Assembly: GCA_020722565.1 (NCBI GenBank)
Contig: DYKO01000008.1
Coordinates: 1 to 64,000, forward strand
Reading direction: 5' to 3'
Source of the DNA: Rikenella microfusus
GTDB taxonomy: Bacteria > Bacteroidota > Bacteroidia > Bacteroidales > Tenuifilaceae
DNA length: 64,000 nucleotides
The notes under the pieces were generated by a model, which was given only the letters and a program-made list of their open reading frames with translations, did no database searches and was not told the DNA's origin. Positions 11,284 to 40,655 of this stretch are shown here, in pieces. Position 1 is the first letter of the stretch. Every line of letters starts with the position of its first letter. Both the position numbers and the translations under genes were made by a program.

Positions 11284-12546
11284 CTAAACAGGCTTTTTAA
11301 GATGATTTAAGGTAAGTAAAAAAGAAAAAAATGCAAAAAATATCACGCCAAAAACTCTCTCAAGAATAGATTCAAATAAAAAATTTATTGCAATAATCAT
11401 AGCAAATAAGAATAATACCATACTACCATTATTAACTCCAATTTTTACAATGTAAATTAAAATTGCCAACAGAATAATAAATCCAAATATGCCTGTAGAA
11501 ATAAATGTTTGAAGGTACTGATTATGGGCATTTAACTTTTCGTTTAAGGCAAATTCAATCTTTTCCTTTTCATAAACCCTGAGCAATTCATCCTTAACGT
11601 CGCCGGCCCCTACGCCAAAAATCCACTCATAGCTTTTTAAAGCCATGGGTACAGAGCCCCAGATTTTAAATCGAACTAAATCCTCTAAGATTAACTTCCT
11701 ATCAAAATCAGTAAGCTCTTCCCTATCCCTCGAGGTAACAGAATTAATAATAAATTTTACTCTTTCGTTACGCAGAACTAATATTGTACCTATTGTTAGG
11801 AAAACGGATAATGCTATCCCTACAATTACTTTTCCTCTTCGTTTAATATTCAAGAAAAGGATAACCAGAAGAATTACAAAAACAGTAAGAATTCCGGCTC
11901 TCGATGATGCAAAAAAAGTAACAGTGGAAAGAAATAGTATGCCCAGGTAATATAAAATCTTGATATTTATTTTTGTTTGCTGTTTTATTCTAACACCAAG
12001 CAACGAAATCCCTAAAGCAAGATACATAGAGTAATAGGTTGGGTGATGGGGTTGAACAAATAATTCGTAAAAAAAGAAATTTTCCCACGGTACGCCCACC
12101 GGAAATGGGCGAAAAAATATACCCTGAGGAGTAATCAACGTTGACTGGTAAGCTGCTCTTGCAAAAAGGTAAATAGAATTACCTATTAAGGCATATAAAA
12201 ATGCTTTTTCTGAAAGTTCGAGTTCTTCACGATTTATCCGAAAAGGGATAAAAGCAAGAGGTATTAGAATTAACGATAGTTTCTGAGCCATATCATTAAT
12301 TCCATACTCTAAATTATCGGAAAATGATAGCGAAAATAGATGTAATAAATATAAAGCAGCAAAAAGAACAAGTAACCTGTTTTTTAAAATTTTAAATGAA
12401 AAAGGTTGAGACAGGAAACCTATAATTGACACAAGGTACAATAATCCAAGTGCATACAGGGAAAACCTGTAACTAATGGGAATGGAAAATGCTACTAATG
12501 CCAGAGCATAAGGATATATGTTTCTTGCAAATTGAAATGTTTTCAT
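11284..12546 (-). CDS. O-antigen ligase/polymerase family membrane protein
   Basis: This is a 420-residue polytopic protein with about 10-12 hydrophobic helices. The Wzy_C/O-antigen ligase family signature is visible: a helix starting FASSRAGILTVFVILL, preceded by PHHPTYYSMYLALG, and after a periplasmic segment NAHNQYLQTFISTGIFGFII, with the His in NAHNQ in the position usual for the family. It is the last gene of the glycosyltransferase operon and overlaps the upstream gene by one base (TAATG). It could be the ligase that transfers finished chains to lipid A core or protein, or a Wzy polymerase; sequence alone does not separate them. Confidence 0.75.
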   Translation of the reverse strand: MKTFQFARNIYPYALALVAFSIPISYRFSLYALGLLYLVSIIGFLSQPFSFKILKNRLLVLFAALYLLHLFSLSFSDNLEYGINDMAQKLSLILIPLAFIPFRINREELELSEKAFLYALIGNSIYLFARAAYQSTLITPQGIFFRPFPVGVPWENFFFYELFVQPHHPTYYSMYLALGISLLGVRIKQQTKINIKILYYLGILFLSTVTFFASSRAGILTVFVILLVILFLNIKRRGKVIVGIALSVFLTIGTILVLRNERVKFIINSVTSRDREELTDFDRKLILEDLVRFKIWGSVPMALKSYEWIFGVGAGDVKDELLRVYEKEKIEFALNEKLNAHNQYLQTFISTGIFGFIILLAILIYIVKIGVNNGSMVLFLFAMIIAINFLFESILERVFGVIFFAFFSFLLTLNHLKKPV

Positions 12547-15606: not shown

Positions 15607-16706
15607 TTTTGCACCTGGGCAATAAATTCTATGATTTTTTGTGACACAATTTCTGGTAGGTAGCCGTATTCCATTATCCTTTTCCGGCAATCATGAGCTA
15701 TTTTGTATTTATCCGTCACTAACCTTTTTAGCCAGTATTCTATTTTACTGGCTAAATCCTCATAGTCGCCCTCCCTAAACAGATCGCCAGTTACTCCCGG
15801 AGTGATAAGTTCAATTTCAGGGCCATGTAGGCCAAAGGCATCAGTTGTAATTACCGGAAGGCCATACGAAAGGGCCTGAACCAATGATAAACCAATTCCG
15901 CCGGGATAAACAAATAATTGTGCTTTGCTAAAGTACTGTTTCAGTTCCTCGCCATATTTTGGACCTAAAAAATTAATACGATCAGTAATCCCTAAATCTT
16001 TGGCGAGTTGTTGATAATAGCTTATTTTGCCTCCACCAACTACAAAACATCTAAAATTAATACCTTTATCTTTTAAAACCTTAAGCGCTTTTATAAGAAC
16101 ATCCAACTTTTTCTCCCGCGTAATTCGACCAGAAAAAAGCAAAACCGATTCATTTGACTCATTATTCATATTAGAATTAAAACCATATTCAATTGAATTT
16201 AGTGCATTACCTATTATTTTTATTTTATTTTCAGGGACACCGATAGAAACAAGATTTTGCTTTCCCTTGTTACTATATACCAGTATTCCCTCACAAGGCC
16301 TGTAAAAAATTGAACGTAACTTTTGGCCTAATTTCCCCTGGTTGCCCAATCCTGCATGTGACCACCAAAGGAATTTTATTTTTAAAAATTTTGCCAATAA
16401 AAAAGCAAGCAACGTGTGAATATGCCTAAAATCGACACCTGAGCAAACAATAATATCAGGTTTATATTTTCTAACAAAATGCAGTGTCTTGCGTAAATAG
16501 TAAAATTTGATAAAACCAAATTTAATTTTGATATATCTATTCTTAATTACATTATTCAGCTCTGATTCTTTTATGTTTTCGTAATCGGTTCCTGCCAACA
16601 GAAACGATTCAAACAGATTGGAATTCAGCAAAAAACTGAATGTATCGTGCCTATAATGTGCAAGGACTGGTTCAATGAAAAGCACCCTTTTACGGCCCTG
16701 AGTCAT
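15603..16706 (-). CDS. Glycosyltransferase family 4
   Basis: This is a 367-residue GT-B transferase. Residues near the N-terminus (FIEPVLAHYRHDTFSFL) and a W-rich acceptor-domain segment (FLWWSHAGLGNQGKLG) lead to the donor domain with LLFSGRITREKKLDVLIKAL, FRCFVVGGGKISYYQQLA, NFLGPKYGEELKQYFSKA and the late donor-site motif GGIGLSLVQALSYGLPVITT. The E of the usual E-x7-E is replaced (GIGLSLVQ), which is seen in some GT4 members. It overlaps the flippase gene upstream by 4 bases. It probably adds a residue to the lipid-linked repeat; the sugar is unknown. Confidence 0.78.
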   Translation of the reverse strand: MTQGRKRVLFIEPVLAHYRHDTFSFLLNSNLFESFLLAGTDYENIKESELNNVIKNRYIKIKFGFIKFYYLRKTLHFVRKYKPDIIVCSGVDFRHIHTLLAFLLAKFLKIKFLWWSHAGLGNQGKLGQKLRSIFYRPCEGILVYSNKGKQNLVSIGVPENKIKIIGNALNSIEYGFNSNMNNESNESVLLFSGRITREKKLDVLIKALKVLKDKGINFRCFVVGGGKISYYQQLAKDLGITDRINFLGPKYGEELKQYFSKAQLFVYPGGIGLSLVQALSYGLPVITTDAFGLHGPEIELITPGVTGDLFREGDYEDLASKIEYWLKRLVTDKYKIAHDCRKRIMEYGYLPEIVSQKIIEFIAQVQK

Positions 16707-17968
16707 TTGGTTTTATTAACTAAATGTATCAGTAAAACAATCATTGTAATATTTGCAGCTACCTCAATTAATGTGTAAACAATAATAAAATTATTAAAGC
16801 TGAGCCATGCAAATAATGGTAGCAAAGAAATAATAATAAAATAGAAGACCTGCCATATACTCTGCCATGTTATTTTATTTAATGCAACAAAAAGCGATGT
16901 AAACGATGAAGTAATAAAATTGAGCGCAAAGGGTAACACCAACAGTTTAGAAATTTCACCGGAAACCAACCACTTTTCTCCAAAAACAAAGGTAAAAAGC
17001 GATTCCGACCATAACACAATTACCAGTACCTCAAAAACACTTATTGAAAGCACAATCCATATTAAAGGTTTTATTTCACCTAAGAATGGCTTTTGGTTAC
17101 GGTAGCATTCAGCAGTTTTATTGAGCACTACGCTTGAAAATGAGTTGGCAACCAATGCAAGTGGGACAGAAAGAATCAACTTGGCAAGATCGAAGTAGCC
17201 AGCCTGTTCGGCTGTATAGTATTTATTAATAAAAATTACAGGCATCATATAGCAAATGGTGCTCATTAGGGCCGGCAGCAGATTTACCTTTGGGAATATA
17301 ATGTACTCTTTAGCAAGTCGCTTGGCATCGTCGTACTTAACAGGCATTAACCGGTATCCGCTTTTTAACGACTGGAAAAACGAAACTATAGCGTTGGCAA
17401 GTTGTCCAGCTATATCCCCAAAAATTAGGCCCCCCGATACCTTTGAAAAAGCTAACGTTGATTGCGTTGTGCCCTCAACCGCTCTTCGAGTAATTTTATT
17501 AACCGAAATTGACCTAAAGTTCTTTTTCCTGATTAACCAGTAGTTATAGACCTGAAAAATGCTCAATAGAAGAGTTCCTAATGGAACTAGGTAAAGCATA
17601 AAACCCTTTTCGTGCGGCAAATTTAAAATTTGAAGGAATGACGCATGAAATAGGGCTACTACAAAGAAAACTATTACGCTGAAAATAAGGCTTATTGAAA
17701 GTGATAAGTTAACCAACTTATTGGAATCGGAATCGGATTTTGGTAGCACTATAGCCTGCTCGTAGCGCAAACTCGAAATAACCATAAGAATACCGATTAT
17801 ACTAAGGTATATTGAATAGTAGCCAAAATCTGATGGGTCAAAGTAGCGCCTCAAAAAGGGTTGAAGCAGTATGGGTAGGGATTGTGCAATAAGGGTTCCG
17901 CCCACTAAAACGGATGCATTTTGAACAATCTCGGTACGCTGAATGTAAGTTAGAACTCTTTTAACCAT
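16703..17968 (-). CDS. wzx: Oligosaccharide flippase (Wzx), first copy
   Basis: This is a 421-residue polytopic protein of the polysaccharide-transport/MOP superfamily, with about 12 helices and the N-terminal signature VLVGGTLIAQSLPILLQPFL followed by YFDPSDFGYYSIYLSI. It is expected to flip undecaprenyl-PP-linked repeat units across the inner membrane. It starts directly after the stop of the WecA-like gene and overlaps the next glycosyltransferase by 4 bases. A second flippase lies at 29.4-30.7 kb with different base composition, so two assembly systems are likely. Confidence 0.85.
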   Translation of the reverse strand: MVKRVLTYIQRTEIVQNASVLVGGTLIAQSLPILLQPFLRRYFDPSDFGYYSIYLSIIGILMVISSLRYEQAIVLPKSDSDSNKLVNLSLSISLIFSVIVFFVVALFHASFLQILNLPHEKGFMLYLVPLGTLLLSIFQVYNYWLIRKKNFRSISVNKITRRAVEGTTQSTLAFSKVSGGLIFGDIAGQLANAIVSFFQSLKSGYRLMPVKYDDAKRLAKEYIIFPKVNLLPALMSTICYMMPVIFINKYYTAEQAGYFDLAKLILSVPLALVANSFSSVVLNKTAECYRNQKPFLGEIKPLIWIVLSISVFEVLVIVLWSESLFTFVFGEKWLVSGEISKLLVLPFALNFITSSFTSLFVALNKITWQSIWQVFYFIIISLLPLFAWLSFNNFIIVYTLIEVAANITMIVLLIHLVNKTK

Positions 17969-18982
17969 CTAATCTTTTGCAAATGGGAAAATTTTATCTA
18001 CATATCTTACAAGCATGTAAAGAAATATAAGGGTGAGAATGTAAATCGGTATTTTCAGAAAATCCCACTCGCGATATAATGAAATAAGTAAAATTATTAC
18101 AATGTTTATAAGAATTAAAACAAAATCGAGCTGCTCATGGGAATGCCCGGCAAGGACATAGCGTTTGAAAACAAATTTATTGTGTGTAGTACTCAGGTTT
18201 TCACCGTTACGCCATCGGCGGTAAAGAGTAAGTGTTGCATCGAACCAAAAAGGCGATGTAAGCATTATCCAGTTAAAAATTGAAAAATTAAGGGTATTGT
18301 GATAGTGCAACCCTAAAACAACCAAAATAAAACCGAACTGGGTACTTCCCACATCACCCATAAAAATTTTGGCCTTGGGCCAGTTCCAGTAAAGAAATCC
18401 TAAAACCGATGCTGCCAGAATTAATAGTTCCAAATTACCTGTAAACCAGTGCAGAGTAAGTGCAACTATAATAGCCTGGATTGACGCAATGCCATCGGCA
18501 CCATCCATAAAGTTAAATAGGTTTATAAACCAAACCATGCCAACAATGGCTAAGGGATAGGTGATAACCGGTGTTGAAAGGACATCTATCCCAAAAGTAA
18601 TGGGCTTTCTAATTCCGCCCAACAGATAAAACGCACCAATAACAACTAAAAACTGAACTAAAAGCCTATATAATGGCCTAACCTCAAAAATATCATCAAT
18701 TAGGCTTACAACGGCCAGTACAAAACCTGCCATCAATGCATAGTAAAGCTCATTGTCTATTTCGCCCAAATAGTAAAGTAGTGTTATTCCAATATACCAA
18801 ATAATAACAACCGCTAAGCCTCCCCCCCTTGGTGTAGCCGATGCATGAACCTTTCTATCGCTTGGTTTATCAACCACATCGAATTTTATGGCCAACTCCT
18901 TTACTACATAAACCAAAATCCATGAGCCTAAAAACGCCAATGCAATAATCACTGAAATATTTATTAAACTGGTAAAATTCAT
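17969..18982 (-). CDS. WecA/MraY-like polyprenyl-phosphate sugar-1-P transferase
   Basis: This is a 337-residue polytopic phosphoglycosyl transferase with about 10 helices. It has the family motifs DRKVHASATPRGGGLA (cytoplasmic loop 1), NLFNFMDGADGIASIQ (the DxxD-type motif) and KIFMGDVGSTQFGF, close to WecA and WbpL. It should transfer a HexNAc-1-phosphate (GlcNAc or a related sugar) from a UDP-sugar to undecaprenyl phosphate, starting repeat-unit synthesis. It is the first gene of the operon 18982 to 11284. A second, unrelated (monotopic) initiating enzyme lies at 26.2 kb. Confidence 0.87.
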   Translation of the reverse strand: MNFTSLINISVIIALAFLGSWILVYVVKELAIKFDVVDKPSDRKVHASATPRGGGLAVVIIWYIGITLLYYLGEIDNELYYALMAGFVLAVVSLIDDIFEVRPLYRLLVQFLVVIGAFYLLGGIRKPITFGIDVLSTPVITYPLAIVGMVWFINLFNFMDGADGIASIQAIIVALTLHWFTGNLELLILAASVLGFLYWNWPKAKIFMGDVGSTQFGFILVVLGLHYHNTLNFSIFNWIMLTSPFWFDATLTLYRRWRNGENLSTTHNKFVFKRYVLAGHSHEQLDFVLILINIVIILLISLYREWDFLKIPIYILTLIFLYMLVRYVDKIFPFAKD

Positions 18983-19160: not shown

Positions 19161-20246
19161 TTACTTAGGAAGATAATCATTGTACACCATTTTGATCCCA
19201 TCCTCCAGTTCAATGTGATACTTCCACCCAAGTTCATTGAGTTTACTCACATCAAGCAGCTTACGGAATGTGCCATCGGGTTTTGAAGTATCCCAAAAAA
19301 TTTCGCCGGTGAAGCCTACCGTATTTTTAACCAGTTGGGCTAGGTCTGAAATGGTAACATCCTTGCCGGTACCAATGTTTATATGAGTGTTTCTTACCTC
19401 GCTTAAACCTTTTTGAATATCATCGAAATCGACATTTTGCATGATATGCAAACAGGCATCGGCCATATCGTTGGAATGCATGAATTCCCTAAAGGGTTTC
19501 CCTGAACCCCAAAGGGTCACACTCACCCCCATCCTTCCCCTATTTATTCCATATCCCGATAAAAGCCTAATAATTTCATCCGTATCAGCATTTCCATCAA
19601 CCCCGTTAATTGGAAGTCGATTTAAATTGGTGCGTATTGTAGTCCAATCATCATGTTCCAAACATTTTGCCAGATGAAATTTTCTAATTAAAGCAGGCAG
19701 AACATGGCTTTTAGCCAAATCGTAATTATCTCCAGGGCCATAAAGGTTTGTAGGCATTACCGCAATAAAATTTGTACCGTACTGAAGGTTGTACGACTCG
19801 CACATTTTTATGCCGGCAATTTTTGCTATGGCATATGGCTCGTTGGTATATTCAAGCGGCGAGGTTAACAGGTACTCCTCCTTGATGGGCTGCTGTGCAT
19901 CCCTGGGATATATACATGAGCTTCCCAAAAATAGCAGCTTTTTGACACCCTGCCTATATGACGTGTGGATAACATTGTTTTGGATTTGTAGGTTCTCATA
20001 AATAAACTGTGCCCTGTAGGTATTATTGGCCATAATACCCCCTACCCTTGCGGCTGCCAGAAAAACATACTCAGGTTTTTCGGTTTCGAAAAAGCTATTC
20101 ACCTGGTTGGCATCCAACAGCTCAAGTTCGGCATGCGTTCGGGTAACAATATTTTTATAGCCCCGCTCAGCTAATTTTCTCAGAATGGCGCTCCCAACAA
20201 GTCCCCGATGCCCTGCAACGTATATTTTGGAGTTAACAGAAATCAT
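19161..20246 (-). CDS. fcl: GDP-L-fucose synthase
   Basis: This 361-residue extended SDR enzyme carries out 3,5-epimerisation and 4-reduction of GDP-4-keto-6-deoxymannose to GDP-L-fucose. Visible motifs are VAGHRGLVGSAI (NADP loop), the catalytic LGSSCIYPRDAQQPI with the downstream EPYAIAKIAG (Y-x3-K), MPTNLYGPGDNY and GSGKPFREFMHSNDMA. It is longer than the E. coli enzyme (about 321) because of an insert before GRMGVSVTLWGSG, as seen in other Bacteroidetes. ATG at 20246, 13 bases after the gmd stop, is preferred over an upstream start that overlaps gmd. Confidence 0.92.
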   Translation of the reverse strand: MISVNSKIYVAGHRGLVGSAILRKLAERGYKNIVTRTHAELELLDANQVNSFFETEKPEYVFLAAARVGGIMANNTYRAQFIYENLQIQNNVIHTSYRQGVKKLLFLGSSCIYPRDAQQPIKEEYLLTSPLEYTNEPYAIAKIAGIKMCESYNLQYGTNFIAVMPTNLYGPGDNYDLAKSHVLPALIRKFHLAKCLEHDDWTTIRTNLNRLPINGVDGNADTDEIIRLLSGYGINRGRMGVSVTLWGSGKPFREFMHSNDMADACLHIMQNVDFDDIQKGLSEVRNTHINIGTGKDVTISDLAQLVKNTVGFTGEIFWDTSKPDGTFRKLLDVSKLNELGWKYHIELEDGIKMVYNDYLPK

Positions 20247-20259
20247 TTTATTTATCAAT

Positions 20260-21300
20260 TTACTTAGTTTGATGAACCGCTTTCCAATCAGCATTAACCA
20301 TTATTCTCACAAGTTCTTTGAAACTCACTTTAGGCTTCCAGCCAAGTAAATTTTCAGCCTTAGCAGCATCTCCTACAAGTAGGTCGACCTCAGTTGGTCG
20401 GTAGTAGTTTGGGTCAACCTCAACCAGTACCCTACCGGTTGCCGAATCAATACCCTTTTCGTTGGCTCCCTTGCCTGTCCACTCAATGCTGATACTCAAC
20501 TCAGCAAATGCGCGTGTGGCAAACTCCCTGACCGTATGGGTTTCGCCGGTGGCCAACACAAAATCCTCGGGGGTATGGTGCTGCAGCATGAGCCACATAC
20601 CCTCAACATACTCAGGAGCATAGCCCCAGTCGCGTTTAGCATCCAGGTTACCCAGGTAAAGTTTTTCCTGAAGTCCATCCTTTATGCTTGCAGCAGCCAT
20701 GGTTATTTTGCGGGTAACAAAAGTTTCTCCCCGCCGTGGCGATTCGTGATTAAATAGTATCCCATTGCAGGCAAAAATGCCATACGCCTCACGATAATTT
20801 ACGGTTATCCAGTAGGCATAGAGCTTGGCAACACCATAGGGGCTCCTTGGGTAAAAGGGGGTTTTTTCTGTTTGCGGCACATCCTGCACTAAACCGTACA
20901 GCTCACTTGTTGAAGCCTGATAGAATTTAGTTTTTAATCCGGTATCCTTGATGGCATCCAGAAACCTAAGGGTCCCTAGGGCATCCACCTCGGCTGTGTA
21001 CTCAGGAACCTCAAACGAAACCTTAACATGGCTTTGTGCCGCCAAATTATATATCTCATCAGGTTCAATACGTTCCAGCAAGCGGTTAAGGTTACTGGAA
21101 TCGGTCATATCGCCATAGTGCAAAAACATCCTTACATCTTTATTATGCCGATCCCGATATAGATGATCGATGCGATGTGTGTTAAAGGTTGAAGCCCTGC
21201 GGATTATCCCATGAACCTCATACCCCTTTTCTAAAAGTAATTCGGCCAGATACGATCCGTCCTGGCCGGTTATGCCTGTTATTAATGCTTTTTTGGGCAT
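20260..21300 (-). CDS. gmd: GDP-mannose 4,6-dehydratase
   Basis: This 346-residue SDR enzyme converts GDP-D-mannose to GDP-4-keto-6-deoxy-D-mannose, the precursor of GDP-L-fucose. It has [22 protein letters not shown] trimmed here to [16 protein letters not shown] at the N-terminus, [31 protein letters not shown], the catalytic STSELYG and [28 protein letters not shown] and [20 protein letters not shown]. These are all specific for Gmd. It lies directly upstream of fcl and 13 bases downstream of the large O-antigen ligase gene, so the three are probably one transcript. Confidence 0.95.
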
Positions 21301-21313
21301 GACAATTGGTGAA

Positions 21314-24300
21314 TTAACTATTTATTTTTTCTATTTCGTTCTTCCCCTCAACAAAACCTATAATATACGGCAAAGCACTTAAAACTCCAAATATGCCGGG
21401 TTCAAAGGGCAAATTTGAACTAAAAAATGAGTAGAAAAATGTTATCAGAAAAGCTACACCAAAAATCCAGTACTGGCGACGATGCTTGTAATAGAGATAT
21501 ACAGCCCTAACATAGAACCAAAGGTAGATAACAAAGCCCAGCAATCCGGAGTAAAGCAACGCCGAAAGAAAAGGGTTATGAGGATAGTCATAATCACGAC
21601 TAGGCTCATTGAAAAGGAATTTTCGTGCAAATTTTTTGGTATAGTCAAATCCCCCACCAAAAAGTTTTTGACTGGTGCTATACTCATTAGCATAGATGTA
21701 AAGGGCATACCGCCACCTATCAATTCTGGGGCCGGCAAAATGATCGTCGGTCATTGTTGGAACAAACCCGTCGTCGATGGCATCGGTTTCTGAACCATTG
21801 GCTTGAGCCATTAATCCAGCAATATTTAAATTCCTCATGGTATTTAAAACCGATATTTTACCCGATTTAACCACCAGCTGTGGGTAGGCAAAGGTTACAT
21901 AACCCTTTAGATTTGAAAAATCGGTAACCCCTTTTTTTGAGAAGAAGTAAACGCCATAAACCCTATCTTTCCCGGTTGCTACAGCTTTTGCCTTTAATAA
22001 TACCCATTTTCCCCTCTCGTTCAAATTGTAACGCTCCAAACGTGGGCCATTAACTTTTCCCCGAATCTCAACCCTTGCCTCATTCCCATCGAAATCGGGG
22101 GAAACATAGCAGTAAACCGAGGCAAAAATGGAATCGCCAACCTCAACGGGTAACCCCCAATAGTGGGTTGATGAATGGTAAATATCCTTCCATTGGTTAC
22201 CCTCGGTATTTGCACTATACCTTGCACCCGCAACACCTGCGGGTACAATTTCGGTATTCCTCCCCTCAAGGGGATACTCCCTTATATAGGTGCTTGATGT
22301 ATAGGTTTCAGGATCCTTAGGGTTATGCCTCATAAGTTTAAAAGAGGGGCTAGCCCATATCACATAACCCTTGAGGTTGGAAAAATCCTTAGAACCGAGA
22401 TTTTCGAAATAGGTAGTGGAGTAATACTCATCATCAGCTTTACCCCAGTTATTAATGGTAAGTTTCTGCCATGTACCCCTTTTATTGAGATCGTACAATT
22501 GGGCCGAATTACCCCATAACTCCTTTGCCCCCCCTCCTAAACGTACACTTTTACCACTAAAATCATTGGAAACATAGACATAAACCGATGATTTCACCCT
22601 GTAATTGCTACCAGGTATTTTAATTTTTTTTAGAGGATTTGAGCTGTACGATAAATCTTTCGAAATCCTTGCCTGGGCATCCCTATCAATTCTCATTCCT
22701 ACACTACCGCGGGGTACAATTTCAGCATTGCTACCTTCAAGCGGGTAAACCCGCTTAAAGTTGGAACCCGCCCAGGCAATTGGCTCATTGAAGTTGAACC
22801 GTATAAATTTCTCCTTGGGATTAGCAAAAAGAACATACCCCCTAATGGAATCGGAGGCACTTTTTGCCTTTTTTCTGTATACATAATCAACCCAACTTGA
22901 GCCCTCATACATACTGTACGATAGGAATAATTTCTGCCAGGTGCCCTTTTTGGTTAAATCGTAGCTATGCTTATTGAAACCATAAATTTTACCACCAGCA
23001 TTTAAGTACACCTCATCGCCATTAAAATCGGGCGATACCCAAACGTAAAGTGAGGGTATAATCCGCGCACTATCCTGAAAATTGTACCGGAAAAGCCCTG
23101 CACCAAAAATGAGCAGGCTATCCTTTTCCCTATACCGTACATTGCCAGCAAGTGGCTTAAGGGCAACCATACCCCTAGACAGTAGCTCACTACCATTAGC
23201 AGGCAATATTTCAACCGGTTCGAATTGTGAATACGCCCATGAAAAGGGATTTTCAGGGCTATACTCAATTTTTTGCAGCTGGGGATAGGCAAATATCACA
23301 TGGCCATTAAGGTTATTAAAGGTTGAATCATTTTCGCGACAAACATAGAAGTAAACCTTGCTATCGGTGCTATCGGGCAAAAAAGAGTTCTTAAGTTGCT
23401 GCCAGGTGCCCTTTCGGGTCATATCGTAGTACCAATCCCGAATCCCCCGATTATGTCCGCGAGTGCTAAGACGCACCCAGGAACCATTAAAATCGGGTGA
23501 TACATAAACGTAAACCGATGAAAGATACCTTTTATTTTCAGCATTGCTAACATCAAAAAGTTTTGAGTAGTATAATGCCTTTCCATTCCAGTTAGTTAGC
23601 GAACTTCCCCTACCAATTTGTGCCCCAATGGCATCGGAAGGGACTTTGGACAAACCATGCTGCGGTAGGTGATCGACAAGGGAATAGCTTCCTGTAGCCC
23701 AACCCGAATAGGGGTAGCGGGGATCAAAAGTTGTAGCCCAAAGCTGTTCCGATACTTCATTGTAGGTGGTCTTGCCCCTGAAAATTGATTCGTAACTGAG
23801 TACCTGAAAGTTGATGTATGTGTTCATCTCAACCCTATTGAACGACGATTCCATGAGCCAACGGTTCCGCTTCAGCGTATCGACCCTAAATAGCAATACA
23901 TACCACGTAACCATTGAACCTAGCATCAAAATAATAAATAGCCAGGTGCTGCGTAATAGGTGATGGTTTGATTTGAACCTGTAAAAAAGCGAAACCAACG
24001 TAGTAATGAAATAAAATCCAAAGAGCGTAAACGAAATAATCCCCCCCCTACGCGAGGTGGCAAGCAACGAGCTCAGCGCAATCACATAGAGTGCCAGCTG
24101 ATAAGCTATTCTTTTTAATCTATTTTGATTTTTGAACAACCGTGGAATAATGAACAGCATTCCGACAGCACCCACCAGCGTATAAAAATTATCGTCGGGA
24201 CCCAACGATGTACCCTGTGGATATCCAACTCCCTCGGGTTTTAAAAAGTCGAGATAGATACCCCTTAGCTGCAGGTAGAGCTTAGCAATCCCTGCAATGG

Positions 24301-24697
24301 CAAAGAGTACACCAAACCATATGGTAAGCGTTGCAAACTTTTTCAGGGCATCGGTTAGCTCCTGCCGGGGAAGGTCCAATACTATCAGTGCAAAAATAAA
24401 TCCCAGCACCACCAGCAAATTAATTATATCTTTAACAAGGCGGTCGGAATAGTAGCTGGTTGAAAACAGGGCGTAGCCCACAAAAAGCGAAACGGCCAGC
24501 AGTGGAATAAAAACCCTGTAGGCCGCTAATGAGAAGTTCCGGTACCTCCCCTCGTAAATGTACAGGGCAACGGAAAGAACTATGAAGATAGCCGTTAGCG
24601 GGAATAACAGGTACTTGATATGCTGGGGTATGGCAAGCCTTACCAGAAAAAGTAAAAAAATTAATGCAAATAGTATTTTAGCTATTTTGCGAAGCAT
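21314..24697 (-). CDS. O-antigen ligase family protein with four periplasmic repeat modules
   Basis: This 1127-residue protein is almost three times the usual length. Residues 1-270 hold about 9-10 membrane helices, including [13 protein letters not shown] (211-223), the Wzy_C-type motif. Residues about 330-945 are a soluble insert in the periplasmic loop, made of four modules of about 155 residues. The cores begin at 393 ([18 protein letters not shown]), 549, 703 and 859, each with [SA]-x-Y-x-[YW]-VS-x-DF-[ND/S]-G, then YDLxxxGTWQKL, and each module ends LxGYVxxAxPxx. The protein then returns to the membrane with [19 protein letters not shown] (1037-1055) and two or three helices. The modules look like jelly-roll carbohydrate-binding domains, by pattern only. 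It is likely a ligase/polymerase that holds its glycan substrate. It is upstream of gmd and fcl. Confidence 0.8.
21863..23710 (-). repeat. Four tandem protein-level modules (about 155 aa each) inside the ligase gene
   Basis: Core starts are at residues 393, 549, 703 and 859, giving spacings of 156, 154 and 156 residues. The modules are diverged, so the repeat is visible at protein level rather than as DNA identity. Module boundaries are near residues 330, 485, 641 and 800. Confidence 0.8.
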
Positions 24698-25098: not shown

Positions 25099-26250
25099 TT
25101 ACTTAATATTAAAAAAGGTTTTCAATACCCCGCTAATCCTCACTTTCTCAATATCCGTTAAGTTTGACCCCGATGGCAAACACAAACCCATTTCAAAAGC
25201 TTTTTCGGAAAATCCATTGGTGTAAGCAGGGACATCATTAAATACGGGTTGTAAATGCATGGGTTTCCAGAGCGGACGCGATTCAATATTCTCCGCCTCA
25301 AAGGCTAACCTTAATTCCTCACGGGTTCTTTGTGTTTTATTAGAATCAATTAAAATTGATGTAAGCCAATAATTTGAATACCTGCTGCCGGACTCGGTAT
25401 GAAAGCTAACACCCTCGATACCACCTAGCAATTCACGATAAAAAGCATTGTTGGCCCTACGTTGCTTAACCCTTAAATCAATTGCTTTTAACTGCCCCCG
25501 CCCAATGCCTGCAAGTATATTGCTCATGCGATAATTGTAACCGATGTTTGAGTGCTGATAATGCGGAGCATTATCGCGTGCCTGTGTGGCCAAAAAACGA
25601 GCTTTTTGAATATATTCCTGATTATCCGAAACTAATGCACCACCACCTGAGGTAGTAATAATTTTATTCCCATTAAACGATAAAACACCCATGGTACCAA
25701 ATGTACCGCAAAATCTATCGTTATACCTACTTCCAAGTGCTTCGGCAGCATCTTCAACTAGTGGTATATCATATTTTTGGGCAATGCTAACTATTTCATC
25801 TACTTTAGCAGGCATGCCATAAAGATGCACAATTATAATAGCTTTAGGTTTTTTACCTTTCTTTATCCTACCCCTGATAGCTTCTTCAAGAAGAGCAGGA
25901 TCCATATTCCATGTTTCCGGCTCACTATCAACAAATATAGGAGTAGCCCCCTGATAAACAATAGGATTGGCTGTAGCAGAAAAGGTAAAGCTCTGACAGA
26001 TAACCTCATCGCCGATACCCACGCCTAGGTTAATTAAGGCAAGGTGTATTGCTGCAGTTCCCGACGACAATGCGCAGCAATGCTGCGCCCCTAAGTAACT
26101 AGCTAACTCATTTTCAAAACCATCAACATTGGGACCCAAAGGTGCAACCCAATTCGACTCAAAGGCCTCATTAATATACCTCATCTCCTCCCCACTCATA
26201 TGTGGCGAGGAAAGCCAGATTTTACTGGATTTTAAAATATCTTTTCTCAT
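25099..26250 (-). CDS. DegT/DnrJ/EryC1 family sugar aminotransferase (PglE-like)
   Basis: This is a PLP-dependent aminotransferase of about 383 residues. It opens with the motif IWLSSPHMSGEE, typical of the group that includes PglE, which aminates UDP-4-keto-6-deoxy-GlcNAc. Other marks are ALSSGTAAIHLALIN, VICQSFTFSATANPIVY, VEDAAEALGS, and the PLP lysine in LSFNGNKIITTSGGGA. The partner 4,6-dehydratase is not seen nearby. ATG at 26250 is preferred; it overlaps the sugar transferase stop by 29 bases, and a longer form from 26277 has a less family-like N-terminus. It closes the operon that runs from 35453. Confidence 0.82.
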   Translation of the reverse strand: MRKDILKSSKIWLSSPHMSGEEMRYINEAFESNWVAPLGPNVDGFENELASYLGAQHCCALSSGTAAIHLALINLGVGIGDEVICQSFTFSATANPIVYQGATPIFVDSEPETWNMDPALLEEAIRGRIKKGKKPKAIIIVHLYGMPAKVDEIVSIAQKYDIPLVEDAAEALGSRYNDRFCGTFGTMGVLSFNGNKIITTSGGGALVSDNQEYIQKARFLATQARDNAPHYQHSNIGYNYRMSNILAGIGRGQLKAIDLRVKQRRANNAFYRELLGGIEGVSFHTESGSRYSNYWLTSILIDSNKTQRTREELRLAFEAENIESRPLWKPMHLQPVFNDVPAYTNGFSEKAFEMGLCLPSGSNLTDIEKVRISGVLKTFFNIK

Positions 26251-26836
26251 CGTATGTCTTTCGTAATATAGTGTCAATAATTATTTTAACATCCAACCAA
26301 AAACTCCAATTCTCATAATATAATTTATTTATTCTTACCTTATCAGGGAAAATAATATTATCGTTATACCATTGGGGATTTTCTACTTTAGACAATATTT
26401 CCTCTTCATTTATATATTTTAAACTAGCAGGCCCCGTTAAGCCTGGTCGAAGATTTAAAATCTTTCTATAATCACCCTCTAGTTTATCGTAATAACCCGG
26501 CACATCAGGTCTTGGTCCAACAAAACTCATATCCCCTTTTAAAATATTCCATAATTCAGGAAGTTCATCTAGTTTATATTTTCTTAAAAAAGCGCCAAGA
26601 GGGGTTATTCTTTTTTCACCTTTAATAGACATTGTTGAACCATTATGTTCATTTATCATTGTTCGAAATTTAAATAATATAAATTTATTCCCACCGCTAC
26701 CAATTCTAAACTGTTTAAAAAAAATAGGTTTCCCCATATTAATTTTTATAAAAATTGCTATAAAAAGCAGTAAAAGAAAGGAAAATATAATTCCTAAGAT
26801 CGAAAGAATTAAATCTGAAAATCTTTTTAAAAACAT
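26222..26836 (-). CDS. Undecaprenyl-phosphate sugar transferase (PglC/WcaJ-type)
   Basis: This is a 204-residue monotopic phosphoglycosyl transferase. The N-terminal re-entrant helix (RFSDLILSILGIIFSFLLLL) is followed by GKPIFFKQFRIGSGGNKFIL, FKFRTM, the catalytic KYKLDELPELWNILKGDMSF (Asp-Glu pair) and VGPRPDVPGYYD, then LRPGLTGPASL. The size matches small PglC-like enzymes (about 200) rather than WcaJ (about 460). With the adjacent PglE-like aminotransferase it suggests that a bacillosamine-type sugar could be the first residue. It is AT-rich like the rest of the block. Confidence 0.85.
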   Translation of the reverse strand: MFLKRFSDLILSILGIIFSFLLLLFIAIFIKINMGKPIFFKQFRIGSGGNKFILFKFRTMINEHNGSTMSIKGEKRITPLGAFLRKYKLDELPELWNILKGDMSFVGPRPDVPGYYDKLEGDYRKILNLRPGLTGPASLKYINEEEILSKVENPQWYNDNIIFPDKVRINKLYYENWSFWLDVKIIIDTILRKTYDEKRYFKIQ

Positions 26837-26847
26837 TAAATTATATA

Positions 26848-27891
26848 TTAACGAGATAGTTTAATACTTACATTTCTTTTCTTTAAAATCACAAAATCTA
26901 AAAATCCTATTAAATAACCAGTACCATAGCTGATATGGGAAATAAAATAGCCCCACGTTATAAAAGGAATAAGTAATATAGTTTTATTAATAATAGAATT
27001 TGTAAAAGCAAAAATAAAAGAAAGTGTTAAGTAAATAATAATTGTGAAGAGCCAGACATAGAAAAAGGGAAAATAAAGTGTTGATAGTATTAATGGAACA
27101 GCTAATGATAACACAAATAATGCAGGAATATACCTTCTAACCCTAGTAGGACGACCTAACTTTAAATCAACCAAAGGTCCGAAATAGCCATACTGGTAAA
27201 ACATCTTAAATAGTTTTGTATAGTTCTCCCTTGCATAGTATTTAATTTTCACACTAGGTATTAGGTATATCCTGCCACCCGCCTTTTTTAGCCGCTCATT
27301 AAACTCATTATCCTGATTCCGGGTCAGCTCCTCATCAAAAAGGCCAATACGATCAAACACATCGCGACGGTAACAACCAAAAGGGACAGTATCTACCTCA
27401 ATAAATTTAATAGAAGTTGATTTGTTTAAACGAAATGAAGCATTCCCTACACCAAATTTAGTTGACATGGCAATTGCAATAGAACGTGCCTTTAAAGTAT
27501 TACTTGCAGTAATGGTTTCTGCTGATGCTCCAACATTGTCGGCATTCAACTTATTTAGATAGTTAACAAGAGTAGAAATATAGTTTTTGGGATATTTTGC
27601 ATGTGCATCAAGGCGAATAATTATATCCCCTTTTGCTTGTTTTATTCCAAGGTTTAGCGCAAAGGGGACTGTTTTTTGCAGATTAGTAAGATGTTTAATA
27701 AATTTATACTTTTGCGTATAATTTTGGATTAGCTCTGATGTTCCATCAGTGCTCAGTCCATCGATTAAAAAAACCTCAAGTAGCTCCTTGTCATAATCCT
27801 GTTCTAAAATAGAATTAATTAAATTAGAAATGAAATCTTTTTCATTTCGGACAGGAACAATGATTGAAACAAAATTATTTTGAAAGATCAT
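26848..27891 (-). CDS. Glycosyltransferase family 2 with C-terminal membrane helices
   Basis: This 347-residue GT-A enzyme has VSIIVPVRNEKDFISNLINS at the N-terminus, FLIDGLSTDGTSE, the DxD-type metal site in IIIRLDAHAKYP, FGCYRRDVFDRIGLFDEEL and the base region RNQDNEFNERLKKAGGR. Two or more hydrophobic helices follow from about residue 250. This architecture is like ExoA/succinoglycan-type GT2 enzymes, which work at the membrane on lipid-linked acceptors. It overlaps the Wzy-like gene upstream by 17 bases, so translational coupling is likely. Confidence 0.83.
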   Translation of the reverse strand: MIFQNNFVSIIVPVRNEKDFISNLINSILEQDYDKELLEVFLIDGLSTDGTSELIQNYTQKYKFIKHLTNLQKTVPFALNLGIKQAKGDIIIRLDAHAKYPKNYISTLVNYLNKLNADNVGASAETITASNTLKARSIAIAMSTKFGVGNASFRLNKSTSIKFIEVDTVPFGCYRRDVFDRIGLFDEELTRNQDNEFNERLKKAGGRIYLIPSVKIKYYARENYTKLFKMFYQYGYFGPLVDLKLGRPTRVRRYIPALFVLSLAVPLILSTLYFPFFYVWLFTIIIYLTLSFIFAFTNSIINKTILLIPFITWGYFISHISYGTGYLIGFLDFVILKKRNVSIKLSR

Positions 27892-28942
27892 TATTAAAAA
27901 TTAAAAAGTATAAAAAGAAAATATCGAGTATTGAAATACCCCAAAAAATACCATACTGCGTTAAACTTAATAAAATAAAGGGTAATACATATTTATAATT
28001 GGATTTTTGAATGTTATATAAAATAAGAATTATGTACAAAATAAATATTATTAAACCATGTGTTGCAAGAACCTGAATAAATGAATTATGTGCATGATAA
28101 AAAAGATTGTTATAAAATAAAGTTAACCTATAAGAACCATTACCAAAAAAGAGATGAGATGATATGAATTGAAAAAAATAATCTAAAACAACAAAACGTT
28201 TATGGAAATCAGATAATAAAGATATCTTTCTGGTAAATTGAGTAACTATAGAGTCAAAATATATTGCAAATATTATTGATATAATTACAATTATTAATAA
28301 AACAAAAAGTCGAATTTTAAATTTTAGAATAAAGTATTTTATTTCATTAATATTTTTTAATATGTAAAAAAATACTAAAGATATAATTACTGATCTGTTA
28401 AATGTAACAATAGCTCCAAGAATAAAAAAAATGTAAAGTAAAAAATTAAAACTTTTTTTAGAGAATATATTTAAATCTAAAATTAAAAAAGCAACAAAAA
28501 TTTTATATGCTAGTTCACTAGAGTTATTTGATAACCCAAATGCTCGCTGATAATAAAGTAAACCAGAGCTATACCATTGACTAATTTTAGTTGAAACAAA
28601 TTCTTTAAAAAATGTTGGCGTTGAAAAAATAAATTCTAATATAGCAACTAAAGTCTCTATAAAAATAAAGATTAAAATATATTTTAAAGTTGCTTTATTT
28701 ATTGATTTTGAAATAAAATATGTAATAAAATATGCTAGTGTGTATGGGAAAATTGCTATTTCATTTGTATTATAACTTAAATGTAATATTCTATTTAATA
28801 GTGAAAGAAAAAATATTGCAAATAATACTAAAAGGTTACAATCAATACGTAGTCTTTTAGGAACATAAAATATACCTAAAGCATATAAATAATGAGGGAA
28901 AAAAATTATAGACGGTAAAAAAATTAAAAGCGCCAGAAACAT
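27875..28942 (-). CDS. O-antigen polymerase (Wzy)-like membrane protein
   Basis: This is a polytopic protein of about 355 residues with 9-11 very hydrophobic segments and extremely AT-rich codons. A motif AHNSFIQVLATHGLIIFILY near residue 290 resembles the H-x-S/Q... loop of Wzy/O-antigen ligases, and AFGLSNNSSELAYKIFVAFL lies at about 140. Two starts are possible: ATG at 28942, used here, or TTG at 28948, which would give a TTGA overlap with the upstream stop. Wzy proteins are poorly conserved, so the call rests on membrane topology and its place between a flippase and glycosyltransferases. Confidence 0.7.
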   Translation of the reverse strand: MFLALLIFLPSIIFFPHYLYALGIFYVPKRLRIDCNLLVLFAIFFLSLLNRILHLSYNTNEIAIFPYTLAYFITYFISKSINKATLKYILIFIFIETLVAILEFIFSTPTFFKEFVSTKISQWYSSGLLYYQRAFGLSNNSSELAYKIFVAFLILDLNIFSKKSFNFLLYIFFILGAIVTFNRSVIISLVFFYILKNINEIKYFILKFKIRLFVLLIIVIISIIFAIYFDSIVTQFTRKISLLSDFHKRFVVLDYFFQFISSHLFFGNGSYRLTLFYNNLFYHAHNSFIQVLATHGLIIFILYIILILYNIQKSNYKYVLPFILLSLTQYGIFWGISILDIFFLYFLIFNNDLSK

Positions 28943-28944
28943 GC

Positions 28945-29448
28945 TCAATGAAATCTTTTCTCTGCTTTTAGTCTTTCGTAATGTTCAATATTTCTGTACT
29001 TAAAAACCCGCGATGGATGACCACCAGCAATTGCACATTTTGGAATGTTGGACACTACTACACTTCCTGCTTGAATAATAGATCCTTCTCCAATGGTGAC
29101 ACCCGGTAGAACAGTTACATTGATACCAAACCATACATTATCTTCAATAATAACATCTCCAGTAATAATTGTCTCATCATAAGGAATTTTTTCACCCTCG
29201 TAATTGTGATTATGGGTCATAACTATACACCCAAAACCTGAATGAAAATTATTACCAATATATACATTACCACTACCTAGCACTTTAAAACCATTAAAGT
29301 TAACATTTGTACCAGTTTTGGTTCGAGGTGTAAGTCTTGTGTAATAATTGGCTTTAATTTTTGCTTTCAGATCATGCAGTGTCATTTTTGCTATAAATGT
29401 ATAAAATAGGGTTAAAAATAATTTAATAATTTTAATAATTTGTCTCAT
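28945..29448 (-). CDS. Hexapeptide-repeat O-acyltransferase
   Basis: This 167-residue protein is a left-handed beta-helix acyltransferase. It contains hexapeptide turns such as NVYIGNNFHSGFGCIVMTH, with the catalytic-type His in THNHNYEGEKIPYDE, and DVIIEDNVWFGINVTVLPGV, TIGEGSIIQAGSVV and AIAGGHPSRVFKYR. It resembles maltose/galactoside O-acetyltransferases. It likely acetylates a sugar of the repeat unit. It overlaps both neighbours by 4 bases (ATGA). Confidence 0.85.
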   Translation of the reverse strand: MRQIIKIIKLFLTLFYTFIAKMTLHDLKAKIKANYYTRLTPRTKTGTNVNFNGFKVLGSGNVYIGNNFHSGFGCIVMTHNHNYEGEKIPYDETIITGDVIIEDNVWFGINVTVLPGVTIGEGSIIQAGSVVVSNIPKCAIAGGHPSRVFKYRNIEHYERLKAEKRFH

Positions 29449-32606: not shown

Positions 32607-33659
32607 CTATAAAATCATATTAGGATAAATAATCTCATCTTCATCAATATCAAAAGCGGCATGCTTACCTAAAACATTATCTTTCTCAGTCCATTTAAAT
32701 CCATCGCCTGGTGATAGTAGATGAATATCATTTATTGAAATAATTTCACCTTTCCTTATTTTTCTTTTTGTTGCAATGCTCCTTTCAAGTTTAATTTTCG
32801 ATCCCTTAACATCTTCTTCAATAAAAATATCCTCAACACCTAATGACATTTCAAGCAAACGAATATCCCTTATCATTCTATTAACACCGTCTGGTCCCAG
32901 AGAACCTTTTTGATCAGTACCTTTCATTCTCCTATCTATTGTAACATGTTTTTCAATTATTTCGGCCCCCATAGCTACAGCTGCTACAGGAGCAGATATA
33001 CCAATTGTATGATCAGAAAAACCTATTTTATATTTAGGATACATTTTTTTTAAATAAGTTATGGTACGCAAATTAACATTTTTAGGGTGTGTAGGATATT
33101 GAGAAACACAATGTAAAATAGAAATATTTTCATGATATTTTACAATGATTTCTAATGCATCATCGAGTTCCTTTTTTCCAGACATACCAGTTGAAAGTAT
33201 TATAGGAATTTTTGTAGAAGCAAGCGCATCTATCAACGGCAAATTAGTTAAATCTCTACTCGCCACTTTTAAATAATCTGGCGTAAACTTTGATAGAACA
33301 CTCATAGCGCCTATGGCACATATAGTTTCTACAAAATCAACATGATAGGTTTCTTTAGCATATCTGTATATCTCATAATGCTGATCGTCAGTTAACTCTA
33401 AAAAAGCTCTATGCTCACCATATGTTTTACCAAAGGAATTAGGATTATCATATTGCATAGCCATTTGTGTTTTTGAAAGTTCTTCTTTTAAATCTCTTTT
33501 AGTAAGTTTAACAGCATTAATAGGTTTCAACTCTAAATTAAATAATTCTTCTACTATCGGTCGACAAATCATATCAACTATCAATTTGGCAAGGTCAACA
33601 GAACCATTATGGTTTTGGCCAATTTCTCCGATAATGTAAACCTCATTATTATTTCTCAT
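32607..33659 (-). CDS. neuB: NeuB-family nonulosonate (sialic acid/KDN) synthase
   Basis: This 350-residue enzyme condenses PEP with a mannose-type sugar (phosphate) to make a nine-carbon acid. It has YIIGEIGQNHNGSVDLAK, the AVKLTKRDLK segment, VASRDLTNLPLIDALA, ILSTGMSGKKELDDAL, ILHCVSQYPTHPKNVNLR, IGFSDHTIGISAPVAAVA, EKHVTIDRRMKGTDQKGS and a C-terminal antifreeze-like/SAF domain (RSIATKRKIRKGEIISINDI, about 285-345). No NeuC or legionaminate/pseudaminate genes lie in the window, and a phosphatase follows, so phosphorylated ManNAc-6-P or Man-6-P is the likely substrate. Confidence 0.9.
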   Translation of the reverse strand: MRNNNEVYIIGEIGQNHNGSVDLAKLIVDMICRPIVEELFNLELKPINAVKLTKRDLKEELSKTQMAMQYDNPNSFGKTYGEHRAFLELTDDQHYEIYRYAKETYHVDFVETICAIGAMSVLSKFTPDYLKVASRDLTNLPLIDALASTKIPIILSTGMSGKKELDDALEIIVKYHENISILHCVSQYPTHPKNVNLRTITYLKKMYPKYKIGFSDHTIGISAPVAAVAMGAEIIEKHVTIDRRMKGTDQKGSLGPDGVNRMIRDIRLLEMSLGVEDIFIEEDVKGSKIKLERSIATKRKIRKGEIISINDIHLLSPGDGFKWTEKDNVLGKHAAFDIDEDEIIYPNMIL

Positions 33660-39101: not shown

Positions 39102-39103
39102 CG

Positions 39104-40051: not shown

Positions 40052-40054
40052 AAT

Positions 40055-40633: not shown

Positions 40634-40655
40634 GATTTAATTTTTTTATTCAAAA

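Follow-up and report, generated by a model that had tools for sequence, protein, structure and literature searches.

A divergent Wzy_C-type membrane protein of Rikenella microfusus with four tandem modules, probably of carbohydrate-binding type, in its predicted periplasmic loop

The window analysed here, a stretch of 64,000 nucleotides from Rikenella microfusus, carries a locus of surface-polysaccharide type containing flippases, initiating transferases, GDP-fucose genes and glycosyltransferases. Within it lies an intact open reading frame, with an ATG start and no internal stops, that codes for an 1127-residue membrane protein. The features of this protein and the genes near it are shown in Table 1. 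Genes for Wzy_C proteins are found at six places in the genome, three of them in this locus; one of the others codes for a Wzy_C protein of 522 residues (L132) and lies among genes read as housekeeping. In all six loci compared among the relatives, a WecA-like homologue lies no more than about 5 kb from the module protein; the seventh locus (L014) is on a short contig without one.

Table 1. Positions in the window of the module protein, its parts and nearby genes
Feature	Coordinates	Strand	Residues and remarks	Basis
Whole gene, Wzy_C-type (O-antigen ligase/polymerase superfamily) membrane protein with four loop modules	21314..24697	-	1127 residues
Predicted TM1-TM9	23888..24685	-	5-270; includes SRRG motif with Arg217 (codon 24047-24049)
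Periplasmic loop, part one, before the insert	23747..23887	-	271-317
Module M1	23273..23746	-	318-475	repeat alignment, tree; marginal CBM_4_9 match
Module M2	22802..23272	-	476-632	repeat alignment, tree
Module M3	22328..22801	-	633-790; sole module with a predicted structure	repeat alignment, tree
Module M4	21863..22330	-	790-945; one-residue overlap with M3 as drawn	repeat alignment, tree
Periplasmic loop, part two	21572..21862	-	946-1042; Arg991 (21725-21727), PHN-motif His1040 (21578-21580)
Predicted TM10-TM12	21350..21571	-	1043-1116
Wzx-type flippase	16703..17968	-
WecA/MraY-like polyprenyl-phosphate sugar-1-phosphate transferase	17969..18982	-
GDP-mannose 4,6-dehydratase and GDP-fucose-synthase-like genes	19161..21300	-	directly downstream
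DegT aminotransferase and Bac_transf (initiating sugar transferase)	25099..26836	-	upstream
Two other Wzy_C proteins, same region	11284-12546, 27875-28948

A hydropathy scan with a simple predictor gives 12 transmembrane segments and a single 772-residue loop between segments 9 and 10, which by hydropathy would face the periplasm and in which, as originally predicted, the modules lie. The candidate catalytic residues R217, R991 and H1040 are invariant in all 17 aligned loop-type relatives and probably correspond to those of WaaL. Together with a weak Wzy_C match, these features uphold the view that an O-antigen-ligase-type membrane core is retained; the protein end singled out in the original prediction, [19 protein letters not shown], corresponds to residues 1037-1055. 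The match to Pfam Wzy_C (PF04932) has an E-value of 6.1e-05 and a score of 23.3 bits (27.2 bits in the genome-wide search), and the congeneric proteins L039 and L040 score 24.1 and 22.7 bits. Because these scores fall below the curated cut-off of 31.7, the 1127-residue protein is, as judged from its sequence, best regarded as a divergent relative of the Wzy_C/GT121 superfamily and not as a curated member. The loop-type relatives are also weak in Wzy_C (L042, E 0.01; L047, no match) and were assigned to the group by alignment. NCBIfam gave no match to the 1127-residue protein, and a profile search of solved structures with the loop-type family returned two matches, at E-values of 1.2 and 5.8, and reached no O-antigen ligase structure.

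The modules had been thought to replace the large loop, but loop residues are kept on both sides of them, and the insert sits at a single site between W320 and R991. The columns of these two residues are separated by 670 residues in the 1127-residue protein and by 18 in L058, a relative without modules.

BLASTP comparison of the protein with itself returned the full-length match only, and the four modules were therefore aligned in pairs, each of the six alignments being set against 500 shuffles. Local scores range from 129 to 230, against a maximum of 61 in the shuffles (z 17.6 to 37.1). Four modules of about 155 residues are thus present as predicted, and the predicted spacings of 156, 154 and 156 are correct to within two residues, albeit with a start near residue 318 instead of the proposed 330. 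The motif [VC][YW]VSxDF begins at residues 397, 552, 707 and 863 (spacing 155, 155 and 156), and Y[DN][LM]xxxGxWxxL at residues 424, 579, 735 and 890 (spacing 155, 156 and 155), such that two of the three patterns described earlier recur in all four copies in relaxed form. The third, LxGYVxxAxP, does not hold strictly throughout: LxG[YH]VxxAxP is strict in three of the four copies, and M2 has [10 protein letters not shown]. The residues invariant across the modules (P7, F81, G83, W111, G145 and P152 in M3 numbering) look structural.

None of the four modules reaches a Pfam CBM cut-off, which for CBM_4_9 (PF02018) is 25.9 bits. M1 gives a marginal CBM_4_9 match (E 0.089, 13.6 bits in the whole protein; E 0.0047, 18.3 bits in a second scan), and this match, below cut-off throughout, recurs in all three congeneric whole proteins, the window's and those of L039 (E 0.012) and L040 (E 0.017). 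Among 29 modules scanned individually, with E-values up to 10 accepted, CBM_4_9 matched three, the best at 0.00069; M3 scanned alone had no Pfam match. A profile search of solved structures with the modules gave one match (E 0.15), to an entry with a leucine-rich-repeat-type immune receptor name, which we take as chance.

M3, folded as a single module, is predicted to be a beta-sandwich with a pLDDT of 88.4. A model of the whole protein, made from its sequence together with that of L014, reached a pLDDT of 31.9 and a pTM of 0.23, and we draw no conclusion from it. Foldseek searches with the M3 model return eight matches at E≤0.001, six of them carbohydrate-binding modules (CBM4-2 and engineered forms, a porphyran CBM and a hyaluronan-binding module) and two of them MAM proteins, all with modest TM-scores of 0.44–0.54 of the query. 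The best is CBM4-2 (E 2.8e-04). A single xylanase module, in several forms, accounts for four of the six CBM matches; among these we count 3jxs, which we take to be kin of CBM4-2. VIA-align places M3 close to CBM61 2xom (Z 10.4, rmsd 3.3, 126 aligned), CBM16 3oea (Z 10.3, rmsd 2.9, 125 aligned), CBM4-2 2y64 (Z 9.8, rmsd 3.4, 133 aligned) and CBM22 4xup (Z 9.7, rmsd 3.6, 136 aligned), although MAM domains, Stig cyclases, phage fibres and others score equal to or above the CBMs. The beta-sandwich of CBM type proposed for the modules is thus borne out by the fold search for one module, with the best Foldseek matches mostly CBMs and with non-sugar proteins tying in VIA-align. A fold of this kind, as modelled, does not by itself show sugar binding.

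Relatives with different numbers of modules, for which a search had been suggested, do exist: modules of the same family are found at the loop site in sets of four, three or one, and the number differs between genera. About 670 residues lie between the fixed flanks in four-module proteins, 524–531 in those with three and 251–252 in those with one. The two three-module proteins are not alike, one having M2, M3 and M4, and the other an M1/M2-type module followed by M3 and a weakly placed M4. Among 393 genomes of the order, all 18 module matches, from eight genomes, fall in Wzy_C-type proteins; among 395 genomes of the phylum, the sole match is the window's own protein. Viral contigs contained no relative of the 1127-residue protein.

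Six other relatives carry one or two modules of a different sequence family at the same loop site. Two of these exceed the CBM_4_9 cut-off (L045, 31.7; L050, 34), L053 and L049 match below it, and L048 and L047 have no match; the assignment of this second family as CBMs is by these Pfam matches. With these CBM_4_9-like modules, a profile search of solved structures found no clear relative, the matches being GH26 and laminarinase chains (E 0.011 and 0.02) and a cellobiosidase chain (0.11). Alignment of the two loop-module families with hhalign gave a probability of 0.4%, that is, no profile similarity, albeit from 29 and 8 alignment rows, with which very distant kinship could escape. Given this dissimilarity, the loop site seems to have acquired a CBM-like fold more than once.

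Modules of the first family also occur at the C-terminus of five Wzy_C proteins of another kind, all of which score above the Wzy_C cut-off. These have four hydrophobic segments after the HN motif, whereas module-free and loop-type proteins have three. The extra segment is present in all five in a 15-residue scan; in a 19-residue scan it is seen in L056 and L087 and not in L060 or L061, and in L059 there is a doubtful stretch within the module. Such an extra membrane segment would place the C-terminal module on the periplasmic side too.

The number of modules is constant at four in the four congeners with the whole gene, and in a tree of the modules every position forms its own old clade. Within these congeners the modules thus appear to be fixed, old and position-specific copies, and the tree does not support a simple counter altered by recent duplication. 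Identity to the two more distant congeners is 42–65% for the modules and 39–41% for TM1-9; the near congener L014 shows no such advantage for the modules (72–78%, against 77% for TM1-9). The four-module proteins of congeners G016, G014 and G018 are 76%, 54% and 51% identical to the 1127-residue protein. G018 is a single-contig genome, and the G016 copy sits on an 8,934-base contig that is the same as L014.

The reading we prefer, with a probability of about 0.6, is that the modules are periplasmic glycan-binding domains that tether a lipid-linked chain near the active site of a Wzy_C-type transferase. The enzyme would be an inner-membrane glycosyltransferase of the Wzy_C/O-antigen-ligase superfamily, acting at the periplasmic face on undecaprenyl-diphosphate-linked glycans, with four CBM-like beta-sandwiches set in tandem into its catalytic loop at a single fixed site. 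These would most likely bind a lipid-linked glycan leaving the flippase, either the donor chain or the acceptor glycan, and so concentrate it locally next to the active site, which may give specificity or processivity. We infer the substrate of the modules, their sugar binding and their tethering role alike.

Several known systems offer partial parallels. With WaaL, CAZy GT121 and Pfam Wzy_C the protein shares 12 predicted transmembrane segments, a long periplasmic loop, the SRRG arginine, a loop arginine and the PHN histidine; it differs in having about 628 additional loop residues, which make up the four putative beta-sandwich modules, and in its Pfam score below cut-off. Its M3 model shares the beta-sandwich fold of CBM_4_9 and of CBM4, CBM16, CBM22 and CBM61, whereas the modules fall below the Pfam cut-off and belong to a membrane transferase instead of a hydrolase. 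BcsB chains, from the cellulose secretion complex, are among the M3 fold matches, albeit weakly (Foldseek E 0.003 and above). In BcsB, periplasmic CBM-like domains serve a polysaccharide membrane machine, although as a separate subunit and not as part of the transferase. A working analogy for tethering is Wzt, in which a jelly-roll glycan-binding domain is joined to a machine handling lipid-linked O-antigen (PMC9445017). This C-terminal domain holds O-antigen for the ABC transporter; it is on the nucleotide-binding part of the transporter and binds the chain cap, whereas here up to four modules lie in a transferase loop. Meitil et al. 2024 (PMC10920833) describe O-antigen ligases with 12 transmembrane segments, a long loop, two arginines and one histidine, which our protein matches, as well as a ligase of two modules, WadA, to which a GT25 domain is appended; the terms 'CBM' and 'carbohydrate-binding' are absent from its main text. 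Targeted searches of an open-access library, judged by titles and abstract openings, brought up no description of a Wzy_C-type protein with such modules.

Other explanations differ greatly in their merits. That this architecture is an assembly chimera, or arose when an unrelated surface protein was inserted neutrally, is extremely improbable: nothing was found in its favor, the reading frame is intact, and the same four-module protein recurs in three congeners, of which one has a single-contig genome and one is also present as a separate record. For these reasons a chimera was rejected, and the stronger conservation of the modules than of TM1-9 relative to the two distant congeners, and equal conservation relative to the near one, speaks against neutral insertion. 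It is unlikely, though to a far lesser degree, that the modules do not bind sugar and instead serve as a scaffold, either structural or for binding proteins, that forms a ring or docks to co-polymerase, export or T9SS parts. The structural look of the invariant residues, the presence of the BcsB crown among the Foldseek matches, and the MAM domains and phage baseplate or fibre proteins that are level with CBMs in Foldseek and VIA-align would all fit a scaffold, but sugar-binding modules make up six of the eight best Foldseek matches, two relatives have Pfam CBM_4_9 modules at this very site, and a ring of modules in one chain leaves the single-module versions, whether of the loop or the C-terminal type, unexplained.

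A special form of tethering is a molecular ruler, in which module number sets the length of chain held and hence glycan length. Natural variation in module number and in flank-to-flank length would fit a ruler, but we consider it improbable, given that four modules are constant in four congeners with each position an old clade, as if their tasks differ, and that the two three-module proteins differ in which module is missing. We see about even odds that the protein is a Wzy-type polymerase of a WecA-initiated glycan, its modules holding the growing chain, with another Wzy_C protein serving as the lipid A-core ligase; this is compatible with tethering. The WecA-like genes near the module protein in all six loci compared point this way, as do the six Wzy_C places in the genome, with L132 situated among housekeeping-like genes as a general ligase might be, although the two other Wzy_C proteins of the region could themselves be polymerases. 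Ligase and polymerase activity are not separable from sequence alone here.

Glycan tethering by the modules, if correct, may be part of a broader pattern, which we put forward tentatively as a doubtful but possible extension: in the Bacteroidales, one fixed loop site could act as a socket into which glycan-binding arrays are exchanged, unrelated CBM-like families having filled it at least twice and the arrays having grown to between one and four modules; these arrays would grip the lipid-linked chain and by their make-up set specificity, processivity or length. Little is understood, in our judgement, of the way in which membrane ligases and polymerases select, hold and measure lipid-linked glycans, and a series of related enzymes with zero, one, two, three or four modules at one loop site provides a direct experimental handle. 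The modules also look expressible separately, and could be a source of glycan-binding reagents for bacterial surface sugars.

A hydropathy scan of the window protein gives 12 segments, arranged as nine, a 772-residue stretch and three, and with a cytoplasmic N-terminus we infer the stretch to be periplasmic. Pfam returned a Wzy_C (O-antigen ligase) match below cut-off (E 6.1e-05, 23.3 bits; cut-off 31.7) and a marginal CBM_4_9 match at residues 388–458 (E 0.089); a third match, at E 4, was taken as chance, and an NCBIfam scan of the protein gave no match. The four related loop modules of the original prediction were borne out, with pairwise local scores among M1–M4 of 129–230 against a maximum of 61 for any pair in 500 shuffles (z 17.6–37.1), and with spacings of 155, 155 and 156 for one motif and 155, 156 and 155 for the other.

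Features of the window protein and its locus, and module architectures among relatives
Feature	Position	Strand	Carrier or remarks
Window protein gene	21314-24697	minus	ATG start, 1127 residues, no internal stop
M1	residues 318-475		window protein; pairwise local alignment
M2	residues 476-632		window protein; pairwise local alignment
M3	residues 633-790		window protein; pairwise local alignment
M4	residues 790-945		window protein; pairwise local alignment
WecA-like initiating transferase	17969-18982		window locus
Bac_transf initiating transferase	26222-26836		window locus
(a) Four modules	loop		window, L014, L039, L040
(b) Three modules	loop		L041 (989 aa), L042 (980 aa)
(c) One module	loop		L043 (720 aa), L052 (700 aa), L044 (truncated by contig start)
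(d) One or two CBM_4_9-like modules	same loop site		L045, L050, L053, L049, L048, L047
(e) One module	C-terminal		L056, L059, L060, L061, L087; all above Wzy_C cut-off

The predicted structure of M3, modeled from an alignment of 8 sequences, namely all modules of the window protein and of L014, is confident and mainly beta (pLDDT 88.4, pTM 0.86). Foldseek returned eight matches at E ≤ 0.001, six to CBMs (four to CBM4-2 or its derivatives, one porphyran CBM and one hyaluronan-binding module) and two to MAM-domain proteins. The top VIA-align match was the glucosyltransferase 5x7o (Z 11.1, rmsd 3.5, 134 aligned), and within 1 Z of it lie a MAM protein (10.8), phage K2 depolymerase (10.8), Stig cyclases (10.5), 2c26 (10.4), CBM61 (10.4) and CBM16 (10.3). 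Because of these matches, the modeled M3 fold is assigned as a CBM-type beta-sandwich, as had been proposed, although this fold also serves other tasks, with MAM proteins and Stig cyclases tying with the CBMs; M1, M2 and M4 would share it by homology to M3. Of 29 modules scanned with Pfam, three touched CBM_4_9 (best E 0.00069); in the congeners L039 and L040 the family is matched by the M1 region (E 0.012 and 0.017, respectively).

Alignment of 17 loop-type relatives (A4) shows that the invariant residues include D168, N170, S215, R217, R991, G1014, F1027, P1039 and H1040. Between W320 and R991, which flank the insert, there are 670–671 residues in the four-module proteins (n=4), 524–531 with three modules (n=2), 251–252 with one (n=2), 375–397 with two CBM_4_9-like modules (n=2), 183–197 with a single such module (n=4), and 18 in L058, the sole module-free relative. 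The loop is therefore interrupted by the modules and not replaced by them. Overall, the original prediction was right in its observation and partly right in its interpretation. At the same site, L054:3506-6190 (-) and L055:5728-8325 (-) carry 437–443 residues in which Pfam at E up to 0.1 found no match, possibly a third module type. The published description of the ligase gives it 12 TM segments, a long periplasmic loop, two arginines on phosphates and one histidine on the acceptor (PMC10920833). R217, R991 and H1040 fit that description, and a residue-by-residue equation may be drawn.

Homologues with differing module numbers were found, as the prediction had asked, with four, three or one in the loop. 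In the CBM_4_9-like type, L045 and L050 have two modules each with one stretch per protein above the Pfam cut-off, L053 and L049 match below it, and L048 and L047 are without a Pfam match and are linked by phmmer to the L045 module (1.1e-35 and 4.1e-36); no profile similarity between the two module families was detectable. All five C-terminal-type proteins have four hydrophobic segments between the HN motif and the module in a 15-residue scan, compared with three post-HN segments in the window protein, the window's 420-aa Wzy_C protein and L064 (3/3 comparable; two others lack the pattern). A 19-residue scan finds the fourth segment in L056 and L087, not in L060 and L061, and in L059 only by counting a stretch inside the module. 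If the extra segment is right, the C-terminal module would also be periplasmic, possibly by a second topological route. The four C-terminal-type proteins compared match the window protein by BLASTP in the modules only, which suggests transfer of the module between two sorts of ligase-like protein.

In a maximum-likelihood tree of 29 modules, M1–M4 of the four congeners form four separate groups (M1 99/99; M2 99/98; M4 100/98; M3 87/81, or 96/92 including the second module of L041). The three modules of L041 group with M2 (100/99), M3 (96/92) and M4 (96/93), and those of L042 with the M1/M2 side (92/98, precise position weakly supported), M3 (91/85) and M4 (60/93, weak); particular modules have therefore been gained or lost with their order kept. 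Against the two distant congeners, the window modules share 53–65% identity (but 42% for L040 M2), TM1–9 39–41% and TM10–12 62–63%; against L014 the values are 72–78% for modules and 77% for TM1–9. To judge by sequence, the modules are under constraint.

An assembly error joining unrelated genes is ruled out: of six congeners searched in addition to the window's genome, three have the same four-module design (G016, G014 and G018; 76%, 54% and 51% identity), and G018 is a single-contig genome. G016 and L014 (a Bacteroidales MAG, UBA4073) have the same protein. In a fourth congener, G017, a contig end truncates the gene, and nothing was found in G013 (130 contigs, 92% complete) or G015 (360 contigs, 78% complete).

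In the profile searches, scoring was confined to the top first-look candidates of each genome, so that a lack of matches does not strictly mean absence. The module profile A1 (29 rows) found four places in the window's own genome, all in the window protein, 18 places in eight of 393 order genomes, all within Wzy_C-type proteins, and the window's own genome only among 395 drawn from the phylum. The order matches include a second, divergent C-terminal-module protein in G121, L087 (E 2.3e-11). The loop-type profile A4 found 16 of 295 order genomes and, among 247 phylum genomes, the window's genome only; the CBM_4_9-like profile A5 found six places in four of 198 order genomes, all in already-known ligase-like proteins.

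The window locus contains two flippases, several glycosyltransferases, three Wzy_C proteins (of six Wzy_C places in the genome), and GDP-mannose dehydratase and GDP-fucose-synthase-like genes. Among six relatives' loci, all have a WecA-like gene within ~5 kb of the module protein and a DegT homologue (24–75% identity), five have Bac_transf and four a Wzx_a homologue; L014, the seventh locus compared and on a short contig, lacks all four. Because its neighbors are flippases, initiating transferases, and sugar and glycosyltransferase genes, the gene is placed in a Wzx-dependent surface-glycan locus, as a putative polymerase or ligase. The two other Wzy_C proteins of the locus, of ordinary size, are at 11284-12546 (-) and 27875-28948 (-), the latter scoring just under cut-off in the locus scan and above it in the genome search. 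The two flippases, two kinds of initiating transferase and extra Wzy_C proteins perhaps reflect two glycans from one region.

Genes for a nucleotide-sugar dehydrogenase, Gfo/Idh/MocA oxidoreductase, hexapeptide acetyltransferase and DegT aminotransferase lie in a row at 37809-41786 (-), enzyme types that we take to be those of WbpA-B-D-E. In P. gingivalis that pathway is reported to be connected with the T9SS linking sugar (PMC7468200). NCBIfam gave no WbpA-B-D-E names to these genes. Close to the polysaccharide locus, a subtilase with GEVED, fn3 and Por_Secre_tail domains (5571-8876, +) is likely type IX secretion cargo. A NeuB-family synthase followed by a cytidylyltransferase (32607-34398, -) perhaps belongs to a nonulosonic-acid pathway. 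Fusions of Wzy_C-type proteins to a C-terminal Bac_transf-like domain occur at L055:1444-3384 (-) (Pfam E 1.4e-53), and, by sequence similarity only, at L054:841-2859 (-) and L057:1407-3188 (-); in L054 and L055 the fusion has a large-loop relative of the window protein nearby.

On the periplasmic side, the modules would be suspended from the catalytic loop, after its first part and ahead of the R991/H1040 segment. Placed in this way, a glycan-binding array could keep hold of the chain with the lipid end or acceptor in the active site. The nearest documented analogue known to us is the jelly-roll domain of Wzt, which would resemble the proposed array in holding a glycan. That domain is described as recognizing the O-antigen cap and as essential for capped-chain export (PMC9445017). 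Because conservation is position-specific, the sequences point to separate tasks or sugars for the individual modules more readily than to plain counting of repeats. The design is an apparently new form of the O-antigen-ligase-type protein, and its range of module numbers is an unusually favorable natural series on which to experiment.
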